Source: Streptomyces sclerotialus (GTDB taxonomy: Bacteria > Actinomycetota > Actinomycetes > Streptomycetales > Streptomycetaceae). Taken from it: DNA of 64,000 nt. Below are positions 7,662-64,000 of this stretch, piece after piece. Every line of letters begins with the position of its first letter. Positions within the stretch are counted from its first letter, which is position 1. Under the pieces are notes generated by a model. It saw only the letters and a list, made by a program, of their open reading frames with translations. It was not told the DNA's origin and did no database searches. The DNA lies in assembly GCF_040907265.1 (NCBI RefSeq), contig NZ_JBFOHP010000002.1, forward strand, positions 8,197,950-8,261,949, written 5' to 3'. Made by a program: the position numbers and the translations under genes.

Positions 7662-8157
7662 TCAGCCGGCCCTGCGGAAGGAGTCGATGGGGCCGCCCCA
7701 GCCTCCCTCAGGGCCTTCCCAGCTGATGGCCGGCGCGCCCTCGCCCTTCATCCCGACGGTGCCCAGGCCACGCCACGCCACGCCCGCCATCGCTGCCACC
7801 CTCGCACGAGAGCGTCAGTGAAACGGCTTCCCCGCTCTTCTCCTCGCCCTTCTCCTTGCCCTTCTTCTTGTCCGGCTTCAGAGTGCCCGTGCAGTCCAGT
7901 TCCGGTCCCTTGGTGGTCACCTTGCCGTCCTCGATGGGCAGGGTGGCCAGGTCGTCGGCGTCCTTGGCTTCGATGAGGGACTTCCAGGACCCGGCGGCAC
8001 GGTCGATCAGCGGCTGCTCGCCCGCGGGCTTCGCACTCGGCGACTGCTTGTCCGCTGCGCTGCCCTTCGCTTCCGCCGCGCCGGTGCTGCCGCTGCTCGA
8101 GCAACCGCTGAGCAGGAGGCCGGTGACGGCGGCCGCGACCGCCCGCGGTGTACTGCC
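7662..8157 (-). pseudogene. Small lipoprotein, broken at both ends
   Basis: A lipobox-like stretch GLLLSGCSSSGS at about 8130-8095 is followed by a lysine-rich secreted domain ('IDRAAGSWKSLIEAKDADD', 'DKKKGKEKGEEKSGEAVSL', 'LSCEGGSD'). The expected C-terminus, '...AISWEGPEGGWGGPIDSF', is present but in another frame, so a frameshift lies near 7780. Upstream, an in-frame TAG at 8158-8160 and the lack of an ATG/GTG/TTG before the lipobox mean the start of the signal peptide is gone. The intact relatives are small conserved Streptomyces lipoproteins of unknown function. Either decay or base-call errors could account for this. Confidence 0.55.
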
Positions 8158-34111: not shown

Positions 34112-36364
34112 ATGTCCGAGTTGTTCGACGCGGTCGACGCGCTGGTCGCGTCCCGCGCTCCGCTGCCGCCGGCGGCGGAGCGCAAGCGGCTGCGCCAGGC
34201 GCATGGCCTGACGCTGGACGAGGTGGCCGGTGCGCTGAATGTGCGCCGGGCCACGGTGTCCGGCTGGGAGTCGGCCAAGAAGCCGACCGAGCCGCGCGGT
34301 CCGGAACGTGAGGCGTACGCGCGACTGCTCAGGCAGCTCGCGGAGCTCTACCCCGCCCCCGGCCCGACGGAGGAGCCGGCCGCTGCGGCCGCGGTACCGG
34401 AGTCGTTCACCGGCACGGCCCCCGAGGTCGCGGCCGAGTCTGCACAGGAGGCCGCCCAGAGCGCCCCCACCCCCACTTCCGCCCCCACTTCCACTTCCAC
34501 CCCCGCTCCCGTTGCCGCTGCTCCGCAGGCCGCAGCGCGTCCGGCGCGCACCGCCAGGAGCACGTCGGCCTCCCGCCGCCCAGGGACGCGGAAAGCGGCC
34601 CCGGCCAGCACCGTCAGCACCCCGGCGAGCACCGACCCGCGCTTCGAGAACGGGCCGTTGGCGGTCGTCGACGTCGAGGACGGGAAGGTACTGGCGTACT
34701 GCGTCGGCGGCCTGGTCCTGGACGTGCCCGCCAAATCCCTCCCGGCACTGATCGACTGGACGCTCAAGGAGGCGAAGCTGGGGCAGCCCAAGCTGTCCGG
34801 CCCGGGCAAGGACGCCGATCCGCTGCTGGTCCTCACCGAGTCCGCCCTGGAGCGCTACGGCCTGCCGGCCGCCCTCAGCGAAGAGGAGCGGCTCGCTGGG
34901 CGGATCCCGGAAGGCCACAAGGTCATCAAGCAGCTGGCCCGCGCCGAGTGGCAGCTGACCAAGCGCGGGTTCGGGCCGTGGGCACGGATCTACCGCCCGG
35001 CCAAGGGCTCGGAGCGGGCCTGTGTGCAGCTGTGCATTCCCTCCTGGCACGCGCTGGACTCCCGGCACTGGGGCGAGGCCGGGCAGCTGCCGCCGGCCGA
35101 CCTCGCCCGCGTCCTGGGGACGTACGCCTCCCGGGTGATGACGCCGCGCGGCTCCACCGCCGTCACCGGCCTGGAGCTGATGACCGCGCTGCACCCGCCG
35201 ACCCGCGCCTCCGAGCCGGATGCCGACGGCCGCCGCCACTCCGAGCACAACCCCGGCTCGCTGGGGAAGGACCCGGTGGACTGCGCACCGTGCGAGGCCC
35301 CCGACGGACACCCGCTCCTGGCGGCCCTGCCGCGCTTCCACGTCCGCGGCCCCGACGAGAAGCTCTTCGAGGAGGCGTACGACTGGGCGCGCCCGATGAC
35401 CGACGACGAATGCCTGCACCGCAACCTGGTCGGCATCGACGTGAACCTCGCCTTCGCCGCCGGCGCCAACGGACTGCCCGTCGGCCTCGGCGCGCCCACG
35501 CACGTCACGAACCCGGTCTTCGATGCGAAGCTGCCCGGCTCCTGGCTGGTCGACCTCTCCCACGTCGACCTCTCCCGCGTGAAGGTCGCCAAGGACAAGT
35601 GGGCAGAGCTGGACAGCGCGCTGCTGCCCAGCCCGTTCACGCCGAAGGGCGAGCGCCCCGAGGGCCCGGCCTGGTACGCGACCCCGACCGTCGCCTATGC
35701 GGTGGAGCTGGGTTATGAGGTGCGCCCGCTGGAGGCGTACGTCCGGTACGAGAACGGCCGCTACCTGGACGGCTGGTACACCCGGCTGCGCGACGCCTAC
35801 CTCGCCACGATGGCCGACCTCGGCGTCGACGCGAACCTGTCGCCGGAGGACTTCCTGGCGGCGATGGAGGGCTACCGCGGCCGCGACCCGGAGCTGGCGA
35901 TCGTGGTGTCCGCGATCAAGGCGACGGTCAAGGGCGGCCTGGGCAAGCTGCGCGAGCGCCCGCGCGGGGAGGGCTGGCGGCCGGGTGAGCCGTGGCGGGC
36001 GCTGTCCCGGCCCACCTGGCGCCCTGACATCCGCGCGGCGGTCATCTCCCGTACCCGGATCAACCTCCACCGCAAGATCGTCAAGCACGCGGCGTTCACC
36101 GGCCAGTACCCGGTCGCGGTCCTCTCCGACTGCGTCGTGTACGCGGTCAACGGCGAATCGCCGCTGGACTTCCTGCCCTACCGCGAGGGCAAGCCGCTGC
36201 CCGGCGGCTTCAAGCTCGGCGTGAACCCCGGCCTGGTCAAGCACGAGGGCACGCAGACCACGCTGTGGGGCGAGGGCGTACGGGAGCAGTTCAACGCCCC
36301 CGAGCTCAACCTCGCCCGGTACATCAAGGACGGCACCGTCACCAATGTCGACAACGGGGAGTAG
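34112..36364 (+). CDS. tap: Telomere-associated protein
   Basis: This 750-residue protein is full length for Tap, which binds the telomeric 3' overhang of linear Streptomyces replicons and brings the terminal protein to it. The N-terminus '[42 protein letters not shown]' is the helix-turn-helix typical of Tap; a Pro/Thr/Ala-rich linker (~95-175) leads to the large domain with '[20 protein letters not shown]', '[52 protein letters not shown]' and '[20 protein letters not shown]', which resembles DNA-polymerase/primase-like nucleic acid-binding domains. ATG 34112 has AGGAGG at 34100. tpg follows after 7 bp. An imperfect inverted repeat CGTAC...GTACG (34026-34042) lies in its promoter. Confidence 0.93.
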
Positions 36365-36371
36365 GTAGGCG

Positions 36372-36932
36372 ATGGCCAAGGAATTCGGGGACGGCCTGGA
36401 CCAGGCGGTGCAGAAGGCGTTCACCCGCCCGGCGCCGAAGTCGGCCGGCGCCCAGATGCGGTACCTGGTCAAGCAGCTCAAGGGCACCCGCGCGGTCGCC
36501 CAGATGCTGCGGATCTCCCAGCGCACCGTGGAGCGGTATGTGAAGGACCAGATCAAAAAGCCCCGCCCGGACCTCGCCGCGCGCCTGGAGCGCGAGGTGA
36601 AGAAGCGGTGGCAGCCCCAGATCCGGGCCAAGGCCCGGCAAAAGGCGGCAACCACCGGCGGCATCGTCATCGACACCCGCGCCCGCCTCGGCTACACCGC
36701 ACCCATCGGCACCACCGACCAGGACCGCATCCGCCACCTGACCGTCGCCCTACCGCCGCAGTACGCCGCCCGCCTCTTCGACGCACAGGAGGCCGGCGCC
36801 GGCGAGCAGCAGCTCAAGGAGATCGCGGCCGAAGCGCTCAAAGAGGTGTACTTCCAGGACAGCGGCCGCCGCGCCGGCAGCCTGGAAGAAGTCCGGTTCA
36901 CGGACATCGAGCACCTGGAGTTCGACCTGTAG
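36372..36932 (+). CDS. tpg: Terminal protein
   Basis: This 186-residue protein is the terminal protein that caps the 5' ends of linear Streptomyces DNA and primes end patching. It matches Tpg throughout: 'LKGTRAVAQMLRISQRTVERYVKDQIKKPRPDLAARLEREVKKRWQPQIRAKAR' (helix-turn-helix), 'GIVIDTRARLGYTAPIGTTDQDRIRHLTVALPPQYAARLFDAQEAGAGEQQL' and 'EVYFQDSGRRAGSLEEVRFTDIEHLEFDL'. Priming residue in characterised Tpg is a threonine. It is cotranscribed with tap. A second, frameshifted copy is at 59588-60143. Confidence 0.95.
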   Translation: MAKEFGDGLDQAVQKAFTRPAPKSAGAQMRYLVKQLKGTRAVAQMLRISQRTVERYVKDQIKKPRPDLAARLEREVKKRWQPQIRAKARQKAATTGGIVIDTRARLGYTAPIGTTDQDRIRHLTVALPPQYAARLFDAQEAGAGEQQLKEIAAEALKEVYFQDSGRRAGSLEEVRFTDIEHLEFDL

Positions 36933-51234: not shown

Positions 51235-52022
51235 ATGGAATGTGCAGGCAAGCAAGAATGTGCAGGCAAGACGGCACTCGTCACCGGATCCGGCGCGATC
51301 GGCGGACTCGGGCACGCGACGGCCAAGGTGCTGGCCGCGGGCGGCGCCGACCTGGCCCTGACCGGCACCGGTCCGAAGCGCGGTGCCCAGGTCGTAAAAG
51401 GCTTCCGCGCAGTCGGTGGCGAGTCCGCCGGGACGGTGCGTTTCGTCGCTGCCGATGTGTCCGATTCGGCGGGCGTGCGACAGCTGGCCGCGGCTGCCGA
51501 AGCCGTCGACATCTTGCTCAACAACGCGAGCGTCATGACGTTCTCCCCGGCCACCGGGCAGGATTTCGCGAGTTACGACGCCACCTTCGCGGTCAATGTG
51601 CGTGCCCCGTCCTGCTCACCGCTCTGCTCGCGGAGAAGATGGCCGCGGGCGGTGGCAGCATCGTCAACGTCCAATCCACCGCGGCCGGTCTCGGCATGCC
51701 GGGCATGACCGTCTACGGCGCGACCAAGGCGGTGCTCGAATCGCTGACCCGCACCTGGGCGGCGGAATTCGCCGAGTCGAACGTGCGGGTCAGCGCCGTC
51801 GCTCCGGGCCCGATGCGCACCTCGAAGGTGGTCGCGGCGGTGGGACCGGACATCGGTGGTATGAGCCTGGCCGCCGCACTCGAGCGCATCTCCGACCCGG
51901 CCGAGGTGCCGCACGTGATCGCGTTTGTCGTCAGTGGCCGGGCCAGTTGCATGACAGGGGCGATCGTGGCCGCTGACGGTGGCCGCACCGCAATCCGAGG
52001 AGATCCGAGGAGGGACAGAACC
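51235..52022 (+). pseudogene. Short-chain dehydrogenase (first of two), one-base frameshift
   Basis: From ATG 51235, 'GKTALVTGSGAIGGLGHATAKVLAAGGADLALTGTG', 'VDILLNNASVMTFSPATGQDFASYDATFAVNVRAP' then a missing base near 51608 (GCCCCG-TCCTGCTC, where TTC would restore FLLTALLAEKMA). The rest, 'GSIVNVQSTAAGLGMPGMTVYGATKAVLESLTRTWAAEFAESNVRVSAVAPGPMRT' and 'MTGAIVAADGGRTAI', is in the next frame, with catalytic YGATK. That second frame continues without stop into the downstream SDR, so as read the two are fused. Repair of one base would restore a normal ~255-residue SDR. Confidence 0.75.
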
Positions 52023-52772
52023 ATGGATCGTCTTACGGGAAAGCACGCGCTGATCACAGGGGGGACGAGCGGCATCGGCCTCGAAACGGCCCGCGAGTTC
52101 CTCGCCGAGGGAGCGACTGTCGCCATCACCGGCCGCTCTCAGGAAAAGCTGGACGAGGCGGCCCGGCAATTGGACGGCCCGCTGCTGACCATCGCCAGTG
52201 ACGCCGGCGACGTACCCGGCCAGGCGGCGCTCGCGGCGCGGCTCCAGGAGGAATGGCCGAAGCTCGACATCCTGATGAGCAACGCCGCCGACGTCACCCA
52301 CCTCCCGATCGAGGCATGGACCGAGGAGGCGTTCGACAGGCTCCTCGCGACCAATCTTAAGTCGCCGTTCTTCCTGATCAGGGACCTGTTACCGCTTTTC
52401 TCCCAGCAGTCCTCGGTCATCCTCGTCGGCTCGGTCTCCGCGTACATCGGACACGAGAACGCGACGGTCTACGGCGCGGCCAAGGCGGGCCTGCTCTCCT
52501 ACACGCGCGGGCTGACCCATGAACTGAAGGACCGAGGGATCCGCGTCAACGGACTGAGCCCGGGCCCGACGATCACCAACGCGTTCGCGCCCCTCGGCCC
52601 CGAGCGCCAGGCCGCCCTCTACGAGGAACTCCGGCGGACCGTGCCTCTCCATCGCCTGGGAACCGCCACCGAACTGGCGAAGGCAGCGGTCTATCTCGCC
52701 TCGGACGAATCCGCCTACACCGCAGGGACCGTGCTGCGCGTTGACGGGGGCATCGGGCAGCTCGCGTACTAG
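52023..52772 (+). CDS. Short-chain dehydrogenase/reductase (second)
   Basis: This 249-residue oxidoreductase starts at ATG 52023 after GAGGAGGGACAG. It has the classical SDR marks: cofactor motif TGGTSGIG (~14), 'DILMSNAADV' in the NAG position, catalytic Ser in 'LVGSVSAYIGH', YGAAK (Tyr and Lys), 'VNGLSPGPTITN' and 'VLRVDGGIGQ' at the end. The position after strand 2 is 'TGRSQEK' (Arg), favouring NADP(H). It is preceded in frame by the broken SDR and both are under the TetR operator. Confidence 0.92.
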   Translation: MDRLTGKHALITGGTSGIGLETAREFLAEGATVAITGRSQEKLDEAARQLDGPLLTIASDAGDVPGQAALAARLQEEWPKLDILMSNAADVTHLPIEAWTEEAFDRLLATNLKSPFFLIRDLLPLFSQQSSVILVGSVSAYIGHENATVYGAAKAGLLSYTRGLTHELKDRGIRVNGLSPGPTITNAFAPLGPERQAALYEELRRTVPLHRLGTATELAKAAVYLASDESAYTAGTVLRVDGGIGQLAY

Positions 52773-53326
52773 GCGGTTTCATGTTGGATCAGCGTGCGGA
52801 CCAGAGGAAGACGCCTGCGACGTAGAGTCCGCCAGGTAGCCGACTGGGTGGCACCAAGCTGCGCTGGGAGCTGACCGCCGACCGCACCGAACGGGACACC
52901 CTGCGCCAGTAGGCTCTGAAGTCCCAGCTCTGACACCAGCCGCAGGGTAGTGGGGGGCGGGCTCGCCTTGGTGGCGGTCTGCTCGTGGTGTTCGGGGAGC
53001 GTCCGCATGACGGGTGACGGGTGACGGGTGATGGGTGACGGGGCCGGACATGGCGGCGAGCGCGGTGAGCACGATGCCGGACGGGTGGTGCGGACCCTTC
53101 AGCTCCTCGGCGAGGAAGTCCAGCCCGACATCACTCGCCGTCAGCTCCTGGGCGAGCAGGGCGAGCATGGCGAGTTCGATCCCGCAGCCGGGTCGCTTGT
53201 GCTCGTGGACGGCGAGGGTCACGGCGACGCCGCAGGAGCGGATCTCCCGGCGAGCTTCGCAGCGGCCTCCAGCTCCGGGCGGCTGTCGGCGTCGGCACCT
53301 GGGAAACAGGCGGCGGCGAAGCCGAT
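52773..53326. other. Gap with a 7-bp repeat and unassigned fragments
   Basis: The region between the SDR and the convergent regulator B holds five GACGGGT units (53009-53043). Short plus-strand (52850-52912, 'LRWELTADRTERDTLRQ') and minus-strand (53222-53045, 'GIELAMLALLAQELTASDVGLDFLAEELKGPHHPSGIVLTALAAM') stretches look protein-like but lack starts or continuity. They may be remnants; no family is recognised. Confidence 0.4.
53009..53043. repeat. 7-bp tandem repeat, five copies
   Basis: GACGGGT is repeated five times (53009-53043) with one A-to-G variant class (GATGGGT). Non-coding on both strands in any convincing gene. It is part of the pattern of short tandem arrays in intergenic DNA of this window. 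Confidence 0.8.
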
Positions 53327-54208
53327 CTATCGCCGTTGGTCTCCACGTTCCGTCGGCTGGTCAGCGATGGGGCCGGAGTCGGGCCGGCGCCGGGTGGCGT
53401 GGAGGGAACCGAGCAGATTGAGGGACTGGGCGCTGGGGCTGCCTGGTTCGGCGTGGTAGATGACGAGCTGCTGGCCGGGCGTCTCGCGTACGTCGAATGC
53501 TTGGTAGGTGAGGGTGAGCGGGCCGACCTCTGGGTGGAGGAAGTGTTTGGCGTCCTGGGTCTTGCCTCGCACGGTGTGGGACTGCCAGAGGCGGGTGAAG
53601 TCCGCGCTGTGCTCGATGAGGGTGCGGACGAGTTCGCGCAGCCGTGGATTGTCCGGGTCGAATCCGGTTGCCTCGCGAAGGTTGGCGACGGTGGCCTGTG
53701 CTGCCCGGTCCCAGTCCGTGTAGAAGGTGCGGCCCGCGGGGTCGAGGAAGGTCATGCGGGCCAAGTTGTCCGCCGGCTCGAACGGGGCGTAGAGGGCATC
53801 GGCCAAGGCGTTGACGGCGAGGAGGTCCAGGGTCCGGCTCATGACGAACGCTGGAGTGTTCGGGTAGCCGTCCATCAGCTGTCGCAGTGCCGGGCTGACC
53901 CGCTCGGCGGCGTGGACGGAGGGCCGTTCGCCTGGCGTGGCCCCGGCCAGCCGGTACAGGTGCGCGCGGGCGTCCGCGTCGAGGCGCAGCGCGCGGCTGA
54001 GCGCGTCGACCACCTGGGGTGAGGGGTTGCGTTCGCGGCCTTGTTCGAGGCGGGTGTAGTAGTCGGCGTTCACGCCGGCCAGGACGGCGACCTCCTCGCG
54101 GCGCAGGCCGGCGACTCGGCGGGCTCCGTAGCTGGTCATGCCGACGTCCTGCGGCTGCAGGCCGGCGCGGCGTGCGCGCAGGAAGTCTCCCAGGTGGTTG
54201 TCGTCCAT
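53327..54208 (-). CDS. MmyB-like XRE-family regulator (B)
   Basis: This 293-residue protein has the same architecture as regulator A: XRE HTH with 'RRVAGLRREEVAVLAGVNADYYTRLEQGRERNPSPQVVDALSRALRLD' and a C-terminal ligand domain with 'TPAFVMSRTLDLLAVNALADALY', 'LARMTFLDPAGRTFYTDWDRAAQATVANLR', 'HFLHPEVGPLTLTYQAFDVRETPGQQLVIYHAEPGSPSAQSLNLLGSL'. This second form is the more common MLTR class. Its divergent neighbour is an Atu4866-like gene and then an SDR. A 33-bp near-perfect palindrome lies 27 bp upstream. Confidence 0.92.
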   Translation of the reverse strand: MDDNHLGDFLRARRAGLQPQDVGMTSYGARRVAGLRREEVAVLAGVNADYYTRLEQGRERNPSPQVVDALSRALRLDADARAHLYRLAGATPGERPSVHAAERVSPALRQLMDGYPNTPAFVMSRTLDLLAVNALADALYAPFEPADNLARMTFLDPAGRTFYTDWDRAAQATVANLREATGFDPDNPRLRELVRTLIEHSADFTRLWQSHTVRGKTQDAKHFLHPEVGPLTLTYQAFDVRETPGQQLVIYHAEPGSPSAQSLNLLGSLHATRRRPDSGPIADQPTERGDQRR

Positions 54209-54234
54209 GTGGTCAGGCTAGGCGGCGGCCCGGT

Positions 54235-54267
54235 GTGCTGCCTGGGTGTGGCACACCCAGGCAGCAC
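54235..54267. promoter_or_regulatory. Operator: 16-bp perfect inverted repeat around a single base
   Basis: GTGCTGCCTGGGTGTG (54235-54250), G, CACACCCAGGCAGCAC (54252-54267) is a perfect dyad. It lies between regulator B (start 54208) and the divergent gene at 54348. The central GGGTGTGGCACACCC resembles the core beside regulator A (GGGGGTGGCATCCCC). As a hairpin it could also form a cruciform, but operator function is more likely at this place. Confidence 0.8.
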
Positions 54268-54347
54268 GCGCCCTGGTCGGTGGCCGCTGACCTGCCCAGA
54301 CTCGGTGGAGCGGGAGGGACCGCACCGTTCGAGGAGAGGAGTTTGCC

Positions 54348-54632
54348 GTGGCCGGGACCGTGGAGAGCGACCACGTCGACGTGGTCGGAACGGTCGGCGT
54401 GGTCGGAACGTGGGTGACCGCGGACGGGCACATCCGTCAGGAGCTACTGCGGGACGGCCGCTACGAAGAGGCCCGCGGCGAGCGGCGCAGCGCGTACACC
54501 GGCCGGTACACGGTGACCGGCAGCCACCTGGACTACGTCGACGACACCGGGTTCACCGCCACCGACGACATCCGGGACGGAGTGCTTTATCACGAGCACC
54601 TCGTGCTCTACCGGGAGCAGAAGTCGTCGTAG
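54348..54632 (+). CDS. Atu4866-domain protein
   Basis: This 94-residue protein contains 'VGTWVTADGHIRQELLRDGRYEEARGERRSAYTGRYTVTGSHLDYVDDTGFTATDDIRDGVLYHEHLVLYRE', the small β-barrel of the Atu4866 family (Agrobacterium protein of known structure but unknown function). GTG start at 54348 after GAGGAGAGGAG. Its first ~18 residues contain a VDVVGTVGVVGT repeat not typical of the family. It is frequently adjacent to MmyB-like regulators and SDRs, as here. Confidence 0.82.
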   Translation: MAGTVESDHVDVVGTVGVVGTWVTADGHIRQELLRDGRYEEARGERRSAYTGRYTVTGSHLDYVDDTGFTATDDIRDGVLYHEHLVLYREQKSS

Positions 54633-54754
54633 AGGAGGCCGGGCCGCGGCCGCCCTGGTCACCGGGGCGAAGCCGCCGTCGGCGGACCAAGAAGCCCGGC
54701 ACAGCAGTCAGCCAGTCAGCCAGTCAGCATCAATGAGAACCAAGGATCACATCC

Positions 54755-55511
54755 ATGACAGGACAACGACTTGACGGCAAGGTCGCGCTGATCACGGGCG
54801 CGACCGGCGGCCTCGGCACAGCGACCGCCGAACTCTTCGCCCGCGAAGGCGCCCGGCTGGTGGTCACCGATGTCGCCGAAGGCCCTGCGGGACCTGTCCC
54901 AGCGGATCGGGGCACGCGGCGCAGAGGTCGTCGCTGCCCGCCTCGATGTCTCCTCCGCGCGGGAGTGGGACGAAGTGATCACCGTCGTACGCGACCGGTT
55001 CGGAACGCTGGACGTGCTCGTGAATCTCGCCGGCATCCTGGACTGGCCAGGTGTCGAGGACACGCGGGAAGAGGCGTGGGACCGCGTCATCGACGTGAAC
55101 CAGAAGGGCACCTGGCTCGGCATGAAGGCGGCGATGCCGCTCCTGCGTGCGAGCGGCAACGCCTCGGTGATCAATACCTCGTCCGTACTCGGCCTGGTGG
55201 GAAGCGGCGCGGCTGCGGCCTACCAGGCGTCCAAGGGGGCCGTGCGCCTGCTGAGCAAGACCGCCGCGGTCGAGTACGCCCGGCAGGGAGTACGGGTCAA
55301 CTCGGTGCATCCCGGGGTGATCGCCACGCCGATGATCCAGGACCTCCTGGACGACCAGGGCGACCGGCAGCCGGACATCCGGCGCACCCCCATGCGCCGA
55401 GCCGGCCGCGCCGACGAGGTTGCCTCCGCGATCCTCTTCCTGGCCTGCGACGACTCCTCGTTCGTCACCGGCTCGGAGCTGGTGGTCGACGGCGGCCTCA
55501 CCGCGCACTGA
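54755..55511 (+). pseudogene. Short-chain dehydrogenase, frameshifted in the first third
   Basis: 'MTGQRLDGKVALITGATGGLGTATAELFAREGARLVVTDVAE' (ATG 54755, TGATGGLG cofactor motif, Asp after strand 2 favouring NAD) is followed, after a one-base shift around 54885-54890 (GAAGGCCCTG), by 'ALRDLSQRIGARGAEVVAARLDVSSAREWDEVITVVRDRFGTLDVLVNLAGIL' and the catalytic 'INTSSVLGLVGSGAAAAYQASKG' to 'ITGSELVVDGGLT'-like end. Apart from the indel everything is conserved, so it may be a recent mutation or a sequence error. It is downstream of the Atu4866 gene, in the regulon expected for regulator B. Confidence 0.8.
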
Positions 55512-55526
55512 ACAGCCCGGCCGTAG

Positions 55527-55645
55527 GACGGCCACGACGGCCACGACGGCCACGACGGCCTGCCGTGAACGCCGCACCCCGTGACCGCGTCAACGTCCTG
55601 GCCTACCTGGCCTACCTGGCCCGCCTGGCCTACCTGGCCCGCTCA
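55527..55645. repeat. Two 9-bp tandem arrays between SDR genes
   Basis: ACGGCCACG is repeated about four times at 55529-55561, and a second array of CCTGGCCTA/CCTGGCCCG units follows at 55600-55642. Both have period 9 and lie in the 210-bp gap before the next SDR; the second could be translated as WPTWPTWPAWP if an upstream start were used, which I consider unlikely. Confidence 0.7.
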
Positions 55646-55721
55646 CCGCGCCACTGCACAGCACCTCAGGTCCGCCCGCACCGGCGCCTGCACTCACCTC
55701 ACCTTCTCCAGGGACCGCACC

Positions 55722-56498
55722 ATGACACCTGCAACTGCGTCCGCCGAAGCATCCGAATCCGCCGAGTTCGCTGGGATGACCGCTCTCGTCACCGGGGCCG
55801 CGCGCGGCGTGGGCAAGGAGACCGTGGCGCTTCTCCACGTCCGCGGCGCCCGCGTCGTAGCCGTGGACCTACGCCCCGACATCATGAGGCTGCCGGACGA
55901 GTTTCCCGGCGTATTCGCGATGCGCGGCGACATCACGCGGGAAGAGACCGCCGCCCGCGCGGTGCAATCGGCCCTGGACACCTTCGGAGGGCTGGACATC
56001 CTGGTGAACAACGCCGGACGCACTGTGAACAAGCCCATCACCGAAACCACCGCCGAGGACTGGGACGCTGTGATGGCGGTCAACGCCCGCGGCTCGTTCT
56101 TCTGCGCCCGTGAAGCATTTCGGGTCATGAAGAACCGCGGCGGCGGTGCCATCGTCAGTACCGGGTCCTACGCCGGCGCCGTCGCCCTGCCCGAAGGCGT
56201 CGCCTACAGCGCGTCGAAGGGCGCTCTGGCTCAACTGACCAAGGTGCTCGCCGTCGAGGGCGGGCCACTGGGCATCCGCGCTAATCTCGTTGCCGCAGGC
56301 GTCATCGAGACCGATTTCCTCGACACGATCCGCCCCGACAGCCGCTCATACCTGGCGTCCTTCGCTGAGGCGCAGCCCCTGGGACGAGTTGCGCAGCCCG
56401 AAGAGATCGCCGAGGTGCTGTGCTTCCTGGCGTCCCCGCGCTCCAGCTTCATCACAGGAGCCGTGGTCGCCGCTGACGGCGGCTTCACCGCGGTCTAG
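55722..56498 (+). CDS. Short-chain dehydrogenase/reductase
   Basis: This 258-residue SDR (ATG 55722, MTPATASAEASE) has TGAARGVG (~26), Asp in 'VVAVDLRPD' favouring NAD(H), 'LDILVNNAGRTVNKPI', catalytic Ser in 'IVSTGSYAGAVALPEGVAYSASKGALAQL' with YSASK, and 'ITGAVVAADGGFTAV' at the end. It follows the frameshifted SDR and the 9-bp repeats. Part of the dehydrogenase-rich block 51-56.5 kb; substrate unknown. Confidence 0.92.
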   Translation: MTPATASAEASESAEFAGMTALVTGAARGVGKETVALLHVRGARVVAVDLRPDIMRLPDEFPGVFAMRGDITREETAARAVQSALDTFGGLDILVNNAGRTVNKPITETTAEDWDAVMAVNARGSFFCAREAFRVMKNRGGGAIVSTGSYAGAVALPEGVAYSASKGALAQLTKVLAVEGGPLGIRANLVAAGVIETDFLDTIRPDSRSYLASFAEAQPLGRVAQPEEIAEVLCFLASPRSSFITGAVVAADGGFTAV

Positions 56499-56589
56499 CG
56501 CCGCATCAGGCAGTATGTCTTCGGTGGCCACGGCCCGTAGGCCCGGGTTGTCAGCGGTTCCGCCGGATGACGTGGCGGTGAGGTGTCCG

Positions 56590-57420
56590 AGTCGTGCGGC
56601 GGGGCAGTCAGGCGGCCTGACTGTAGCCGTCGGCTCCTGCGCCGCCATCACTCCGCTCGACGCCGATCAGGCGTACAGCATCATGGCCCGGCTGCGCCTG
56701 GCCATGCCCCGCCAGCTCAAGATGTTGCTGCTGCCGACCACCAGGCAACGGACTATCTCCGCCGCGCGCTGCGCAACCTCCGCGCGGACGCCCTGGTTGC
56801 TCGGGTCCACCGCGCCCAGCACAGCTTCTGGTACTGCGTCCCGGCGGGCCTGGCCGAAGCTGCCGCCTCCGGCGAGCTGCCGCCGAGGGCCGGCTGGGCC
56901 ACCCGGGATGCGCGCGGCTGGCGGCGGCGGGTGGCCACAGCCGCGCGGACCGGCTTGCGTGAGCACGCCCTCGCCCTGGTCGGCACCGGCATTGCTTCCA
57001 CCAGGCGCAGACGGCCGACCTGCCGACTGGCAGGTAGAAGTCGCCCATCCCACGCCGGCCGGCCCCCTGATACCCGACGGCGCGGTGCTCCTGAGCGATG
57101 GCTCCCACGCGTTCGTGGAGATCGACCGCACGATGTCCTACGCTCGCCTGCTCGCCAAGCTGGAGCGCTACGACGCCTACCGCGGCGCGCCGGCGAGCGG
57201 ATGAGGCAACGCCGCCCGTGTCCCGCGCAGCCACTGGCAGGAGACCTACGCCGGACCGACCCTGCACCGCCCCTTCCCGCCGGTGCTGTTCGTCTTCGCC
57301 CCGGCCCGGCGGCGCGCCGCCCCGGCAACGAGGGAGGCCGCGTTCTGCGACCGCGCTCGCCGCGTGGTGAGTGTGAACTACCGGATTATGGTGGCGACCA
57401 CGACCCGGCCCTGCTGACCC
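56590..57420 (+). pseudogene. Replication-relaxation family protein, multiple frameshifts
   Basis: Ordered pieces in different frames match plasmid-type replication-relaxation proteins (winged-helix N-terminus plus nuclease-like fold): 'YSIMARLRLAMPRQLKMLLLPTTRQ' (~56670), 'TDYLRRALRNLRADALVARVHRAQHSFWYCVPAGLAEAAASGELPPRAGWATRDARG' (56750-56930), 'LREHALALVGTGIA', 'ADWQVEVAHPTPAGPLIPDGAVLLSDGSHAFVEIDRTMSYARLLAKLERYDAYRGAP' (57020-57200) and 'WQETY...PFPPVLFVFAPA' (57237-57300). Such genes sit on actinobacterial plasmids, integrative elements and chromosome ends. At least three indels show it is dead. Confidence 0.7.
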
Positions 57421-57992
57421 GGTAGAGGCCCGACCGTCCGGTGTGGCGGGGCGTCGGCCACGGCGAGGACCGCCGGAACCTGGCCGCGCTGCCGACGCCG
57501 CGCTGAGCACGGCAGCGGGCCCGGCCTCCATCCAGGTGCCGGGCCTCTGCCGTCCGGCCGCGTTGCCGGTGGTGGCTGCAAGGCTGGGGATGAACGGCGA
57601 TGAGCAGCTGCTGCGCGGCCGGGGCTACGGCCACGACCACGACACCCCGGCCCCGGCCCGCTGCCGCACCGGACGTACGCGGTGCTGTCGGCGGGCCGCT
57701 GGACGGGTTCCTGCTGGGCATCACCGGCTGGCGGCCGGGGGAAGCCGAGGACGGCGCGGCCCTGTCCACCGAGCTGTCGCGGTGGCCCGGCGGCCGCGCC
57801 CTGTACGACCCGCGCCCCGGCGAGCCGCGCACACCGGGCCCTGGAGTGAGCTGCCGCTTCTACTACTCCGGCGACACGCCCTGACCACGATGCGTCGGCC
57901 CCACCGACGATGGCGAGTCAGGCGTCGGTGAGGCGGTCGAAGCCGCTCAGCATCGGGGGCAGCTGGAGACAACAGGCTGCCACCTAAGAGGC
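57421..57992. other. Gap with one unassigned fragment
   Basis: The plus-strand stretch 'DGFLLGITGWRPGEAEDGAALSTELSRWPGGRALYDPRPGEPRTPGPGVSCRFYYSGDTP' (57700-57882, ending in TGA) resembles the end of a real protein but no start or family is recognised. The rest is GC-rich non-coding DNA between two decayed mobile genes. Confidence 0.35.
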
Positions 57993-58424
57993 TTGACAGC
58001 GGATGGTGAACTGATCATGAATCGCAACCTGAGAGGATCTGATGGCTGGGCGGGCGGCGAGGCCTTCGAATACTTCCGCTACCTATGGGACGAACCAGCC
58101 ACCCAGCTCGCGATCATCTTCGTCGGCGGCGAAGGCTGCCACACCGTGCTGCGCCGCGAACCGATGCTCTCCTCCCGCATCTTCATCCGGCAGCACTTCA
58201 CCCGCCTCACCCCCAACGAGGTCCTCGACGTCATCCCCCTGTTCCACCCGATCCGGGCCGATGCCGATCCCGAGGACATCACCTTCGCTGACAGCCACGC
58301 CGCGCACGGCAACTTCCGCGCCTGGGCCCAACTGACCGCCCACACCCGCACCGCCCTGACCCGCACCGGCCGCGCCCGCGTGAACCAGGAGCTGCTGCGC
58401 TGGGCCTTCAGTCGCCTCGCCTGA
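57993..58424 (+). pseudogene. TniB-like AAA+ ATPase, C-terminal half only
   Basis: 'GGEAFEYFRYLWDEPATQLAIIFVGGEGCHTVLRREPMLSSRIFIRQHFTRLTPNEVLDVIPLFHP' and 'HGNFRAWAQLTAHTRTALTRTGRARVNQELLRWAFSRL' are the C-terminal half (sensor region and lid) of a transposition-helper ATPase of the TniB/TnsC kind common in Streptomyces Tn7-like elements. The Walker A and Walker B/DEAQ parts that must precede it are missing. Together with the TnsA-like remnant at 33020 it points to former Tn7-like transposons near this end. An ATG at 58017 may be fortuitous. Confidence 0.6.
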
Positions 58425-58467
58425 ACACCACACCGCCACGCACCTCGCCGCGCCGCCGCCCGTCACT

Positions 58468-59556
58468 GTGGTCATCGACCCGGGCAACGATGTGATCTAC
58501 ACGCACACCGCCCTGGCCGCCCACCATCCGCCGTCCGGCCGGATCACCCTGCACCCCGGCCCGGGCACCACCAGCGAGACCGGCCTCGCCCACGACCTTC
58601 TCGCCGCCCTAGGCAAACCGCCCCTACTCCCGGGCCGCTTTCCCGGCGGCCGTCAGCCAGCCCGGCAGGCAGCCACTGCCTGGATGGCCGCCCTGCCCGT
58701 GACCCGGCTGACCGTCCTGCGCGCCCACCGCCTCACCCCCCCCGCCCGCCGCACGATGCGCCCCCTGCAGCTACAAGCCCTCACCGATATCCACCTGACC
58801 CCGATCTGCCACCGCTCTCACCTTCCCGCCGCTCTGCACCAGGCCCTGCGCACGGCCGACTACTCCGTCACCGCCGACTTCGAAGCCGCCCCGCCGCCAC
58901 TACTACGGCACGCCTATCGCCGAACCCCCGCCGGCAGACGAGCCCGCCTGGCCGGCCAGCCGGTGGCTCACCCTGCCCGCACTGGACCGCCTCATCTCCT
59001 ACGACAGCCCCGCCCCTGCACTGCCCCGTGCACGCCGCCCCCGATCGTCTTCCGGCACCGCCCACCGCCCGCTCCACTCACCCCGCACACCGCCCAGCGA
59101 GTCACCCACCGGCTTCGCACAGCAACCGCACATCCTCGCCTGGCCGCGGCCGTCGCCGCCGCGCTGTTCACCGGCGCCTCCCTCCAGCAACTCGCCACCG
59201 CCCGCCCCCGCGACTACGACGACGCTGCGGCCACACTCGCCCTGCACGACCGCGCCCGCTACACCGACGGCTGCGCCACCCACCCCGTACCGCCCTGGGC
59301 GGGCATCTTCCTGCGGGCCGCGGCCTGCTTCGCCCGGCTCGTACCCGGCGAGGGCCAGGAACTGCTCGCCGCGCCAGGTGACCGTGCGCACCTGCTGCGC
59401 CTGGCCGAGACGGCCAGGCTGCGCCCACCCCAGCCACCCACGGCCCGCCGCCAAGGCCCGGCCGGCCGTGTCGAGTGGGACTGGCAGGAGCGGCAGGAAG
59501 CTGAGAGGTACGAAGCGATGCCGGCCAGACGCGCCAGGCCCACCACGCGACGCTGA
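58468..59556 (+). pseudogene. Companion gene of the TniB-like ATPase, unknown family, probably with two frameshifts
   Basis: The frame opens with a GTG at 58468 and stays open for 362 residues, but the middle (58890-59030) reads as arginine/proline-rich nonsense; in the next frame the same DNA gives 'RHYYGTPIAEPPPADEPAWPASRWLTLPALDRLISYDSPAP', which looks genuine. Flanking parts are 'LPVTRLTVLRAHRLTPPARRTMRPLQLQALTDIHLTPICHRSHLPAALHQALRTADY' and 'AAALFTGASLQQLATARPRDYDDAAATLALHDRARYTDGCATHPVPPWAGIFLRAAACFARL'. Two compensating indels are therefore likely. I do not recognise the family; its place 43 bp behind the ATPase suggests a mobile-element accessory gene. Confidence 0.45.
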
Positions 59557-59587
59557 ACACCTGACGTGTTCGCTCGAAGGTGCAAGC

Positions 59588-60143
59588 TCATCCGATCGAG
59601 AAGTCGGCGAACTCGATGTCGCTGAAGGCGATGCGTAAGCCGTGGGCGCGGCGGCCCCATTCGCGAAAGTAGGCATGTCCCAGCGCGCGGGCCAGGATCA
59701 CCGTCTGCTGCTGCTCGCCCGCGCCGGCGTCCCGGGCGGCGAACAACTCCCGGGCTACCTCTCCCGGCAGGTACTGGGTGATGCACCGCACCCGCGGATC
59801 GTCCGAGGACCCTGCTGGCGCGGCGAACCCGAATCGCGCCCGGGTATGGAAGACGAAGCCCTCCGCTTCGGCCTGGGCACGCCGACGAGCCCGTATCCGG
59901 GGCTGCCACCGCGCCAAGACCGCTTCCTCGATCGCCCGGTCCTGCATCGCCCCCCGGCAGGCGGCGCGCTCCGGGCTTCTTCGTCACCCACCGCTGCACA
60001 GTGCGCTGCGACACCCCCAGCACGACGGCCACCCTCCGGGTGGAATACCGATTCGTTGCCAGCAGAAACCGCAGGCGAGCCTCGGTGCTCAAGGGAACGG
60101 GCCAGGTGCGTAACGCGTGCTCCAGCCCCTGCTCGATATGCCC
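59588..60143 (-). pseudogene. tpg: Second terminal-protein (tpg) gene, frameshifted in a G-run
   Basis: From GTG 60143, 'GHIEQGLEHALRTWPVPLSTEARLRFLLATNRYSTRRVAVVLGVSQRTVQRWVTKKPGAR' matches the N-terminal HTH of Tpg. After the run GGGGGG near 59955, the protein continues in another frame: 'MQDRAIEEAVLARWQPRIRARRRAQAEAEGFVFHTRARFGFAAPAGSSDDPRVRCITQYLPGEVARELFAARDAGAGEQQ' to 'AYFREWGRRAHGLRIAFSDIEFADFSIG', again Tpg throughout. Joined length ~185 residues equals the intact copy at 36372 but identity is only moderate, so it is a divergent paralogue. Without tap beside it and broken as read, it may be a relic of another linear replicon, or one base is miscalled. Confidence 0.85.
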
Positions 60144-60302
60144 CACGCCCGCCTCCTCCAAGTGGCCAGCCGATAAGGCCGGCACCCTGCGGCCATGACG
60201 TCAGTTCTCCCACACTCCCCGCCCCTCACCGCCGATTGCGGCATTCCCGGAACAGCAGTAGCTGGCATCGGCTAGAGGGCCCCTGCGTCGGCGACAGGGC
60301 GG

Positions 60303-62948
60303 CTATGCCCACTTCACGCCCAGCTCCCGCAGTGCATTCAGCTGGTCGTGAGTGAGCTTGTCGCGCCTCGATTTCGTGTTCGAGACCCACACGCCCAGCT
60401 TCACAAGCACCGGCTCGGCCTCGCCAACGACCGCGATTTCTTCGGCGTGACCCCTTGGTACCGGCCGGTCCGCGCCCTCCCGCTCCACCCATTGCGCGAG
60501 GGCCGCAAGTCCTCGCTGGAAGGCTGATGCCTTCCCGGTACCCTTGGCCGTCGGGGCGGGAGCCGGCGCTTCATCGGGCTGTACGCCCAGCGCTGTCAGC
60601 CGCTCCTGCTGCTCGGTGGTCAGCTGCGCCCACGTACTCGGCTGCTTCTGCCGCTGCAGCCACCTGCCCAGGTCATCCCCCTCGAAGAGCACTCCGCGCT
60701 GGATTTCGGCAAGGACGCCGGCCCCGTCGGCGTCGACCAGGTCGGCGAGGACGCGGTAGTGGCGTTGCCAGTCCAGCGGCCAGAGGCAGTTCCAGTCCGG
60801 GTCGATCTGGGTGAGCTGGGCGGCACGGGCTGCCGCACGCTGTGGGTTCTTGCCGAGGCCGTCCTTGCGGCGGAGGTTGGCCATGTGCTCCCCGACCGGG
60901 ACCAGCTCACTGTCGGCGTCGCCCCATACAGCGTGCCGCCTAGGGGCGAGGTGGCCGTGGGCGCGGTGGAAGGAGCGCAGCGCGGCGAGTTTGCTCTCCC
61001 AGGCTTCGTCGCCGGGCTCCCACACCATTCCGGCTTCGTCGAGCAGCGTCTTGCGGTGGTCGCCGAGTTCGCCCGCACGGTACACGCGCCGCTGCTGGTG
61101 GACCCACCGCCCCAGAGGGAACGCCTTGGTGACGCCCACCGTCGTCTCGGTGTCGTACGGCACCGCGTACAGGCCGGTAATCCCGTTCTCTTGGCGCCAA
61201 CGCAGGAGGGCTTGGTAGCCCTCGAGCCACACCAGGGATTCCGGCCGGTAGACCCGGGTGCGCAGGAACGCAGCGATGGTGGCGGCGTCGCGCGGGGTGG
61301 AGAAGTGCAGCAGCGCCGACTCCACCGCGCCCTCGGTCTCGTCCTGCCCGCCCTCGCCTCCGGCCGTGGTGCCGATGATCCGCCCGTCCTCGTCCCGCTT
61401 CACGTGCACGTGCCGCTGCCCGCTGCTCAGCGCCCGGCTGGCAAGCTGTTCGACGAGGCGTTCCGAATGTGAGCGCAGGCCCTGGAGAACGGCCACAAGG
61501 GGGCGAAACGAGGCGCTGGCGACCATGTCGGTGGGGTCCTCGCCGGGCTCCAGGAACACCGGCACAATGATCCTGGCGACCTTCGTGCTGCCGTCGCGGT
61601 TGAGCCGGAGCGCCCGGCCGATGTTCTGCACGATCTCGACCTGGGAGCCGCGGGTGTCGGCGAAGCACACTGCTTCCACGCCGCGCTCGCCGGTGATGTC
61701 CACGCCCTCCCCGAGCACCCGAACGCTCGCCAGGAACGCCCGGTGCACCCGGCGCCCGGCCGCGTTGATCCCATTGGCGAACTGCCGCAGCACCTCGCGC
61801 CGCTCGGAGACGAGGTGGTCGCCGCACAACCAGGCTGACCACACCCGGTCCGGGGGGACGTGGCGGCCGGCCTCCAGCTCGTAGAACTCCGCGTCGATCG
61901 ACGATTTCGGCAACCGGTCCGCAGCCGCCAGGGCCCCGCCGGAGGCGTCGCCTGCGTACAGCTCCGCAGCTGTCTCTGGCAGCTTCTCCGCAAAGGCCGC
62001 CGCCTCCTCGACCTTCTGGTGGAACGTCATCACAGTGCGCAGGTTCCACCTCGCCGCGTGCTCCAGCAGCGCCGTCTGCAACAGGGCCAGGCGCCGGCCC
62101 CGCTGCGCCTCCTCGGATTCCCCGAGGGCGGGGGTGGGGTCGCGGATTTCCAGGACGTCGATCTCGAATCCGGCGAGGATGCCGCGCTCGATGGCCTCTG
62201 AGAGCCCGAGCTCGGCCAGCCACGGCCCGTACGTGCCGTCCGGGTCGTCGGCCATGCTGGCGAGCTCCAGCTCCTGGCCGTCCGCGCCCCTTCGCGGCTG
62301 GGGAGAGGCGAGGATGCGGGGGGTGGCGGTGAGATAGAGCCGGAAGTCGGCGGGGATCCGCTGGTTGTCGTGGATCGCCGCCCACGGACGACCAAGATCA
62401 CCGGCGGTTCCGTGGGCCTCGTCCACGATCGCGAGGTCGAAGCCGTCCATGCGCTGCCCGTACAGCCGCTCGCCGCCCGCCAGAGCGGCCTCCAGCGGCC
62501 CGCGGACCTTCCGCTGGCCCGCGGGTGCGTCGAGGTCCTCGCGGTCCACTAGGGAGGCGTATGTGGCGAACACGACGATCGGCCCGTGCGCGGCCCACAG
62601 GGCGAGCTGGATCGGGTTGGTGGTGGTGCGCACCCTCAGCGAGTTGAGCACCGGGTCGTTCTCCAGCGAGCACACCGCGACCATCGGCGCCCGGTGGCCC
62701 ACCAGGCGCCAGGCCTGGGCGGTCTGCACGAGCAGGTCCAGGGTCGGCACCGTCACCAGGATCCGCCGGCCGGAGAAGCACTCCAGCGCGCACGCGGCCG
62801 CTGTGATCGTCTTGCCCGACCCGGTCGCGGACACGATCGTGCCCCGTGCCCCCTCCGGGGGAACAGAAGATCTTGCAGGGAATCTGACCCATTCACGGAA
62901 GGCCGACTTCTGGTCGACCTGGTGTTCTCTGAGTGAGATTCCCTGCAT
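60303..62948 (-). CDS. Telomere-proximal superfamily 2 helicase with helicase-associated domains
   Basis: This 881-residue protein has a helicase core: motif I SATGSGKT (~43), DEAH as 'AIVDEAHGT' (~174), 'LTATPR' (~204), and a second RecA-like domain with 'RRVHRAFLASVRVLGEGVDITG' and 'QNIGRALRLNRDG' (motif VI, arginine finger). The C-terminal ~280 residues contain several helicase-associated (HA) repeats, e.g. 'ALRSFHRAHGHLAPRRHAVWGDADSELVPVGEHMANLRRKDGLG'. Helicases of this type (TtrA group) lie at the ends of Streptomyces chromosomes and linear plasmids and have been linked with conjugal transfer of linear DNA. It reads toward the chromosome interior. The long frame is intact. Confidence 0.88.
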   Translation of the reverse strand: MQGISLREHQVDQKSAFREWVRFPARSSVPPEGARGTIVSATGSGKTITAAACALECFSGRRILVTVPTLDLLVQTAQAWRLVGHRAPMVAVCSLENDPVLNSLRVRTTTNPIQLALWAAHGPIVVFATYASLVDREDLDAPAGQRKVRGPLEAALAGGERLYGQRMDGFDLAIVDEAHGTAGDLGRPWAAIHDNQRIPADFRLYLTATPRILASPQPRRGADGQELELASMADDPDGTYGPWLAELGLSEAIERGILAGFEIDVLEIRDPTPALGESEEAQRGRRLALLQTALLEHAARWNLRTVMTFHQKVEEAAAFAEKLPETAAELYAGDASGGALAAADRLPKSSIDAEFYELEAGRHVPPDRVWSAWLCGDHLVSERREVLRQFANGINAAGRRVHRAFLASVRVLGEGVDITGERGVEAVCFADTRGSQVEIVQNIGRALRLNRDGSTKVARIIVPVFLEPGEDPTDMVASASFRPLVAVLQGLRSHSERLVEQLASRALSSGQRHVHVKRDEDGRIIGTTAGGEGGQDETEGAVESALLHFSTPRDAATIAAFLRTRVYRPESLVWLEGYQALLRWRQENGITGLYAVPYDTETTVGVTKAFPLGRWVHQQRRVYRAGELGDHRKTLLDEAGMVWEPGDEAWESKLAALRSFHRAHGHLAPRRHAVWGDADSELVPVGEHMANLRRKDGLGKNPQRAAARAAQLTQIDPDWNCLWPLDWQRHYRVLADLVDADGAGVLAEIQRGVLFEGDDLGRWLQRQKQPSTWAQLTTEQQERLTALGVQPDEAPAPAPTAKGTGKASAFQRGLAALAQWVEREGADRPVPRGHAEEIAVVGEAEPVLVKLGVWVSNTKSRRDKLTHDQLNALRELGVKWA

Positions 62949-62989
62949 TTACGGCTTCCTTTCCAGTGCTGGTTCTCAGGGGGGCGAGA

Positions 62990-63658
62990 TTATGACGAAA
63001 GATGGTCTACGTCGTCACGTCCTCGAAGTCCCCATTCGTCGAGTCCGGCGTAGACAGTGGCGGTCAGGCACTGTGGCGCATCCATGACCTCGGCTTCGCC
63101 TCGATAGATGGCGATCAGCGAGTCGCCGCCGCGCCACCAGGTGTCCGCGAGGCCGGCAATCTCTGGCACGGCCTCGAAGCCGTCCAGTTCGAGGTCCTCC
63201 ACAGCAGCACCCGTATACGTCGTGGTCGTACGCGCACTCCTGCGGGCGTGATCTGCCAGGGCGAGGGCTTCCACCCACCCTTCGACGCTGGCGTGCAAGG
63301 GCACCCACTTCCCGGCATGAAGCCCGAACTCCCCGTTCGGACCGATCATGAAGGAGTAGGGAAGAGCCGTACGCTGCGCGCCGGCTCCGAAGCGCCAGTC
63401 AGGGTCCGGTCCCTCGGGTACATCTCCGCTGAACGCCCGAGGCCCCCCGTCGTAGTGAGGAGAAGGAGGAAGGACCAGGCCACCCCAGACAGCCTCGAAG
63501 GCGGACACCCGATCGATCTGAGCTTCGGGGACCCCGCGCTCCATCCATCGACTCCTGTACCGCTCTATATCACCACGACCAGTCCAGTAGCCATGGCAGC
63601 CAATAAAGTACCTAGCTCTGCGGGTGATCCCTCCAGGAATACCATTGTTGATCGCCAT
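62990..63658 (-). CDS. Protein of unknown function, last gene before the telomere
   Basis: This 222-residue protein (ATG 63658, MAINNGIPGG, after GGGTGGAGCG; an ATG at 63676 is possible) is soluble and W/G-rich: 'YFIGCHGYWTGRGDIERYRSRWMERGVPEAQIDRVSAFEAVWGGLVLPPSPHYDGGPRAF', 'LPYSFMIGPNGEFGLHAGKWVPLHASVEGWVEALALADH', 'EDLELDGFEAVPEIAGLADTWWRGGDSLIAIYRGEAEVM'. The overall plan (long loop, 'LHASVEGWVE') recalls SMI1/SUKH proteins, but I would not assign it. It lies 41 bp upstream of the helicase and in the same direction, so may be cotranscribed with it. Confidence 0.6.
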   Translation of the reverse strand: MAINNGIPGGITRRARYFIGCHGYWTGRGDIERYRSRWMERGVPEAQIDRVSAFEAVWGGLVLPPSPHYDGGPRAFSGDVPEGPDPDWRFGAGAQRTALPYSFMIGPNGEFGLHAGKWVPLHASVEGWVEALALADHARRSARTTTTYTGAAVEDLELDGFEAVPEIAGLADTWWRGGDSLIAIYRGEAEVMDAPQCLTATVYAGLDEWGLRGRDDVDHLSS

Positions 63659-63769
63659 CGCTCCACCCTCTACCATGTTTCTGCCAACGCTACATGCTGC
63701 ATCAGCCTGATGCAGCCGCTACACTGGAACTCGACACGAACGAGCACCCCCTCCCCTCGTAGCCAGCCA

Positions 63770-64000
63770 GGCCCGTGTAACGGGCCTTCAGGTTCTGGAG
63801 GCGCAGCCGGAAGGACCGTTGGGGGCGGGGAGCGTAGCGGACCCGCCGGCTCCTGACTGGAGCGCAGCGGAAGTCAGGAGTTTTGGGGCGTAGCCCCACC
63901 GCTCCGGGAGCGCAGCGGACGGAGCGTCAACCCTGGCGCGCAGCGCCAGGGTTGTGCGGGTGGCGCAGCCACCCGCCAGCGCTCACGCTCCGCGTGAGCG
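63770..64000. other. Telomeric hairpin array (right end)
   Basis: Successive perfect inverted repeats fill the end of the window: GGCCCGT-GTA-ACGGGCC (63770-63786); CTCCTGACT...AGTCAGGAG (63850-63880); TGGGGC-GTA-GCCCCA (63884-63898); GCTCCG...CGGAGC (63901-63925); AACCCTGGCGC-GCA-GCGCCAGGGTT (63929-63953); GCGGGTGGC-GCA-GCCACCCGC (63956-63976); CGCTCACGC-TCC-GCGTGAGCG (63980-64000). The plus strand at a right-hand end is the 3' overhang, and GCA/GTA loops on it are what Streptomyces telomeres show. Read inward, the junction GAGCGCTGGCGGGTGGC also matches the known telomere after its outer palindromes, so the true end is probably within ~100 bp. Confidence 0.88.

Follow-up and report, generated by a model that had tools for sequence, protein, structure and literature searches.

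According to PMC4513846, Streptomyces telomeres carry a 3′ overhang of about 300 nucleotides after replication, and the overhang folds into hairpins. In the same description, Tap binds palindromes II and III, Tpg together with Tap makes the first 13 nucleotides on palindrome I, and a polymerase fills the rest. The stretch of DNA analysed here (the window, 64,000 nucleotides) corresponds to bases 8,197,950-8,261,949 of contig C2 (G000:C2), which is 8,261,949 bases long. Its right end, positions 63769-64000, is almost certainly most of an archetypal chromosome telomere, from palindrome IV inward, whose outer palindromes I-III were not assembled and which would be patched by Tap and Tpg.

Anatomy of the hairpin array

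At the right end of the window, the plus strand is the 3′ strand. A script searching this strand for perfect triloop hairpins with a stem of 5 bp or more found five within the array: two with a GTA loop, two with a GCA loop, and the last with a TCC loop. Between them lie four larger hairpins, in which GGA-type internal loops surround a small GNA-capped stem. The array thus comprises nine hairpins, as listed below. Two more 5-bp hairpins were found by the script, one with a CGG loop nested in a larger hairpin (63900-63912) and one with a GCC loop outside the array (63700-63712).

63769..64000, plus strand: archetypal telomere hairpin array on the 3′ strand; incomplete, stopping within the telomere at palindrome IV
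63769..63787, plus strand: innermost hairpin of the array, 8-bp stem, GTA loop; absent from the minimum-energy fold (script and covariation)
63791..63817, plus strand: larger hairpin, inner GCA-capped stem; absent from the minimum-energy fold (covariation)
63824..63847, plus strand: larger hairpin, inner GTA; least supported in the alignment, with 61.2% of cells paired (fold and covariation)
63850..63880, plus strand: larger hairpin, GGA-type internal loop, inner GCA-capped stem (covariation)
63884..63898, plus strand: hairpin with a 6-bp stem and a GTA loop (script and covariation)
63900..63926, plus strand: larger hairpin, GGA-type internal loop, inner GCA-capped stem (covariation)
63928..63954, plus strand: hairpin with a 12-bp stem and a GCA loop; 98.2% of cells paired, 8 of 12 pairs changed on both sides
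63956..63976, plus strand: hairpin with a 9-bp stem and a GCA loop; 99.5% of cells paired
63980..64000, plus strand: palindrome IV, 9-bp stem; its 3′-strand loop is TCC (flipped; usually GGA)

The palindromes are tightly packed and the hairpins mostly have GNA loops, as is typical of archetypal telomeres. The initial annotation, made from the letters alone, had described seven inverted repeats, four of them closed by GNA triloops. The array is real and the four triloops were counted exactly, but the hairpins number nine, seven of which appear in the minimum-energy fold. GTA loops had also been regarded as non-canonical; GTA is named among the commonest telomere loops in PMC8743542.

Folding of the 3′ strand, proposed as a check at the outset, gave a clear answer. 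As DNA, the array folds with -84.4 kcal/mol, as compared with -59.28 (sd 3.42) for 200 dinucleotide shuffles (z -7.35, none of the 200 as good). For an equally long control just inside the array (63300-63530), z is 0.07 and 100 of 200 shuffles were as good. In the minimum-energy fold the two innermost hairpins pair otherwise, but across the relatives their outer stems are paired in 100% and 90.6% of cells. When 23 telomeres are aligned, pairing holds in 94.3% of 1724 cells, a percentage biased in favour of the structure since this was derived from the window itself. Double changes are less exposed to this bias, and 31 of the 78 pairs have changes on both sides. None of 500 shuffles reached any of five measures, and pairing fell to 33-42% when the partners were slid out of register. 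The helix at 63824-63847 is the poor one; the alignment is gapped there, and a G run of the window is shifted or differing.

Short inverted repeats are common in high-GC DNA, as the 5-bp hairpin outside the array illustrates. Thus, it could be argued that the array arose by chance at an arbitrary contig break in GC-rich DNA. This is hardly conceivable: the z-score of the array against that of the control stretch and the covariation both contradict it, and the same array occurs near other contig ends in other genomes. A chance array was therefore rejected.

The contig end and the missing outer palindromes

Base 64000 is the final assembled base of contig C2, so that the contig does end here, as was to be checked. 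The reverse complement of the right end of the window aligns with the contig's own left end, revealing a TIR of about 12.6 kb:

51315..63929, strand not assigned: part of the right TIR, aligned with the left contig end across 12,618 columns at 99.96% identity

Judged from the assembly alone, the array thus sits, as archetypal telomeres do, at one end of a presumably linear replicon that has TIRs. The end of a separate linear plasmid was also considered and rejected, since contig C2 is chromosome-sized. Blastn of the small second contig of the genome (L005, G000:C1; 14.2 kb, 14,206 bp) against the window and the first 20 kb of C2 yielded no match, and a tRNA scan found no tRNA in this contig. 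Just inside the telomere, the window encodes an 881-residue helicase with four helicase-associated domains (60303-62948, minus strand). Where plasmid records match the terminal 1.15 kb, the matched region is often annotated with a "Helicase associated domain protein".

Is the array homologous to known telomeres? The telomere query matched 135 plasmid records, 134 of them named Streptomyces and one [Kitasatospora], as well as 100 of the 392 genomes of the genus, its own included (E <= 1e-5). Similarity to archetypal telomeres, another of the proposed checks, was found at 76-83% identity in the nine relatives whose loci were matched across all 300 query bases. Thus, homology to the archetypal ends of other replicons is evident. 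For the alignment, 22 of the 29 fetched loci of relatives (L015-L043) were used together with the window; L024 was left out because its contig starts inside the match, and L036 and L039-L043 because their match starts at query base 72 or later. All 22 relatives have the same palindrome series as the window.

The relatives also indicate what lies beyond. In 20 of the 22, the contig extends 41-69 bases past the position of base 64000; the other two have 6 and 174 bases there, the outer part of the latter looking different, and fit the preferred reading less well. The 13-nt palindrome I CCCGCGGAGCGGG is present in six of the 22, and in these palindromes II and III come next in order, as described in PMC4513846. 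From this order, the last hairpin of the window is palindrome IV. In the named end L075 (S. coeruleorubidus ATCC 13740), the counterpart of base 64000 is base 68; it is base 69 in L080, 70 in L094, and 68 in L066. The ends of S. scabiei 87.22 (L070 and L121) open with the same palindromes I-IV, while further inside they match only 59 of 231 query bases. Thus, the molecule very probably continues for about 67-69 bases past base 64000, judging from aligned relatives. These outermost bases, with palindromes I-III (about 70 bases), are probably absent from the assembly. The claim that the array ends at base 64000 is correct for the contig, whose last hairpin is 63980-64000, but very probably not for the molecule.

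It may be asked whether the telomere is instead truly shortened, lacking palindromes I-III and replicated by another route. The assembly does stop at palindrome IV and contains none of palindromes I, II, and III; nothing convincing turned up in the whole genome with a 69-base outer probe taken from one relative (best E 0.04). It is also a weak point of the preferred reading that the outer part is deduced from relatives, among which II and III are present. However, the assembled chromosome ends are unequal by 71 bases: the TIR match begins at base 72 counted from the right end, and the left end (G000:C2:1, corresponding to window position 63929) stops 71 bases further in than the right one. This is what an incomplete assembly predicts, and the unequal ends as well as the failure of the probe fit an assembly fading out in the telomere. 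Other assemblies also stop at scattered places. According to PMC8743542, many "complete" genomes have no recognisable telomeres, and ends missing or possibly missing from assemblies are acknowledged there; in PMC7205883 the last bases are acknowledged as possibly missing from the authors' own assemblies. A shortened telomere is thus very improbable, and an archetypal telomere with an incompletely assembled end is preferred.

The flipped loop of palindrome IV

The 3′-strand loop of palindrome IV is normally GGA, complementary to the centre of palindrome I. In the window, this loop is TCC. The initial annotation had pointed to the last hairpin as unusual; the rare flipped loop is genuine, although it belongs to palindrome IV and not to the terminal hairpin. 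In the 23 rows of the alignment, read by eye, the loop is GGA in 18, TCC in three (the window, L015, and L020), GGC in one, and GAA in one. Among named loci, the loop was readable in 60 of 66; on the 5′ strand it is TCC (normal) in 58, TTC in one, and GGA (flipped) in one, L094. A pattern search of the 392 genomes found the flipped form in at least three, its own included, and the normal form in at least 29; both counts are lower bounds, as one mismatch was allowed and a neighbouring CTGG was required. Since L020 and L094 have an identical sequence, come from contigs of equal length, and are probably one strain, independent cases of the flip are few.

Does the flip matter for pairing with palindrome I? 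Palindrome IV of the window matches the usual palindrome I at 8 of 13 positions. Among the 21 complete named ends in which palindrome I lies at the exact expected place, the I:IV match is 10 to 13, with L094 at 10. The modelled I:IV duplex has -14.6 kcal/mol for palindrome IV of the window with the usual palindrome I, the same as L094, while four others range from -16.1 to -22.6. In this model, the flipped loop would weaken the I:IV pairing. L094 is a complete flipped end whose palindrome I is unchanged, so that the flip is uncompensated there; for the window, a compensating change in its own palindrome I, the bases of which are missing, is conceivable.

I read the flipped palindrome IV as tolerated variation, a genuine but minor departure and the sole one from the archetype. 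A further step would be to regard it as a natural functional variant: the duplex of I and IV at the base of the "rabbit-ear" fold would be weak or unused, and patching would rely on palindromes II and III bound by Tap instead of full I:IV pairing. The unchanged palindrome I of L094 fits such a duplex, yet the proposal is a tentative and rather doubtful one. In any case, the flip offers a small test, set up by nature, of the need for full I:IV pairing in end patching, and it is the sole part of the finding that may be of use to a specialist.

Some public contigs bear on the I:IV pairing through their junctions. Ten of the 66 named loci carry sequence well outside palindrome I. In L098 (about 1096-1289) and L101 (about 7738-7985), an inverted telomere copy starts exactly at palindrome IV, over 188 of 188 bases (100%) and 242 of 242 (98.8%), respectively. 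Weaker inverted copies joined at palindrome IV were seen in L090 (1-194; 68 bases, 82%) and L105 (15 bases), and L083 has the same junction, known by the junction only. L073 and L077 differ in being inverted at palindrome I itself. The outer sequences of L071, L072, and L120 gave no inverted-telomere match; those of L071 and L120 resemble transposon-library adaptor left in public contigs. The inverted-copy contigs look like products of 3′-end fold-back extension, either in the cell or during library preparation. Fold-back of palindrome I on IV, or less stably on itself, and extension of the 3′ end in vitro are described in PMC4513846.

Telomere protein genes and comparison with known telomeres

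A tap-tpg gene pair, as expected with an archetypal telomere, lies 27 kb from the window end and outside the TIR, with intact reading frames:

34112..36364, plus strand: tap, telomere-associated protein, 750 aa (NF047542, 1114.8 bits, cut-off 600)
36372..36932, plus strand: tpg, terminal protein, 186 aa (NF047541, 302 bits, cut-off 90)

Both proteins score above the curated NCBIfam cut-offs. In S. lividans Tpg, T114 accepts the nucleotide, with D115 and D117 (as reported in PMC3572947); the Tpg of the window has Thr115, Asp116, and Asp118 in the same context. Its closest plasmid relatives are 94.0% identical over 98% of the protein, and those of Tap up to 90.4% over 87%. If the described scheme holds, the 3′ strand would be single-stranded after replication and fold into the hairpin array, Tap on palindromes II and III would recruit Tpg, and the threonine of Tpg would prime the first 13 nucleotides before the gap is filled. 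Judged by its anatomy, the strain most likely uses this published Tap/Tpg end patching.

Other tpg-like sequences were observed in the genome. A second tpg-like gene is present in both copies of the TIR (window 59597-59947 and 59976-60122, minus strand; G000:C2:3807-4332). It is split over two frames and apparently broken; its pieces are 47% and 43% identical to the intact Tpg, with a Ser at the priming site. Lone tpg pseudogenes are described as frequent in terminal regions in PMC3572947. Short Tpg-like and Tap-like fragments were also found in the left arm (G000:C2:49282-49389 and 120273-120569, respectively, both minus strand), and they are perhaps relics of another telomere gene pair.

The initial annotation had suggested a variant class of telomere with its own Tap/Tpg specificity. 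The TCC loop of palindrome IV is rare indeed, which also counts against the preferred reading, and L094 shares the flip, yet the best Tpg of its genome is only 52% identical to that of the window. On the other hand, the array is homologous to archetypal telomeres along its length, and Tap and Tpg belong to the archetypal families. Two plasmids that match the telomere query (NZ_CP113912 and NZ_LN831789) encode a Tpg that is 92.9% identical. A new class would lack homology to the known classes or have a divergent Tap/Tpg pair, and neither is seen here. Moreover, palindromes II and III, to which Tap is reported to bind, lie outside the window, and no pointer to a private specificity was found within it. 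Four genomes with complete archetypal ends were tested, and each encodes a Tpg relative, the best identities being 78, 69, 53, and 52%; the two low values are less favourable to the preferred reading and caution that an archetypal-looking end need not be accompanied by a near-identical Tpg. Taken together, a new class is exceedingly improbable, even more so than a shortened telomere. Thus, the observation itself was sound and is confirmed. A telomere is borne out by the contig end with its TIR, by the homologous ends of many Streptomyces replicons, by the covariation of the hairpins, and by tap-tpg in the window, while the proposed new class is not supported. It should be cautioned that an apparent new telomere type at an assembly end may be the common type minus its diagnostic outer palindromes.

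How does this end compare with described telomeres? PMC8743542 describes six telomere classes with little stem sequence in common, and Tac/Tpc as the proteins used by SCP1; going by this description, the window would differ from the non-archetypal classes. The non-archetypal ends of SCP1, Sg13350, Sg2247, pRL1, and pRL2 are described there as having 3′-strand hairpins with loops of 3 or 4 nucleotides, a feature that the window shares. With archetypal telomeres such as L075 and the S. scabiei 87.22 ends (L070 and L121), it shares the common palindrome series, the GNA loops, a contig end with a TIR, and tap-tpg; it differs from them in lacking assembled palindromes I-III and in the flipped loop of palindrome IV. 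The right end of the window is thus of a known kind, the common and well-studied archetypal Streptomyces chromosome end with the usual telomere proteins encoded nearby.
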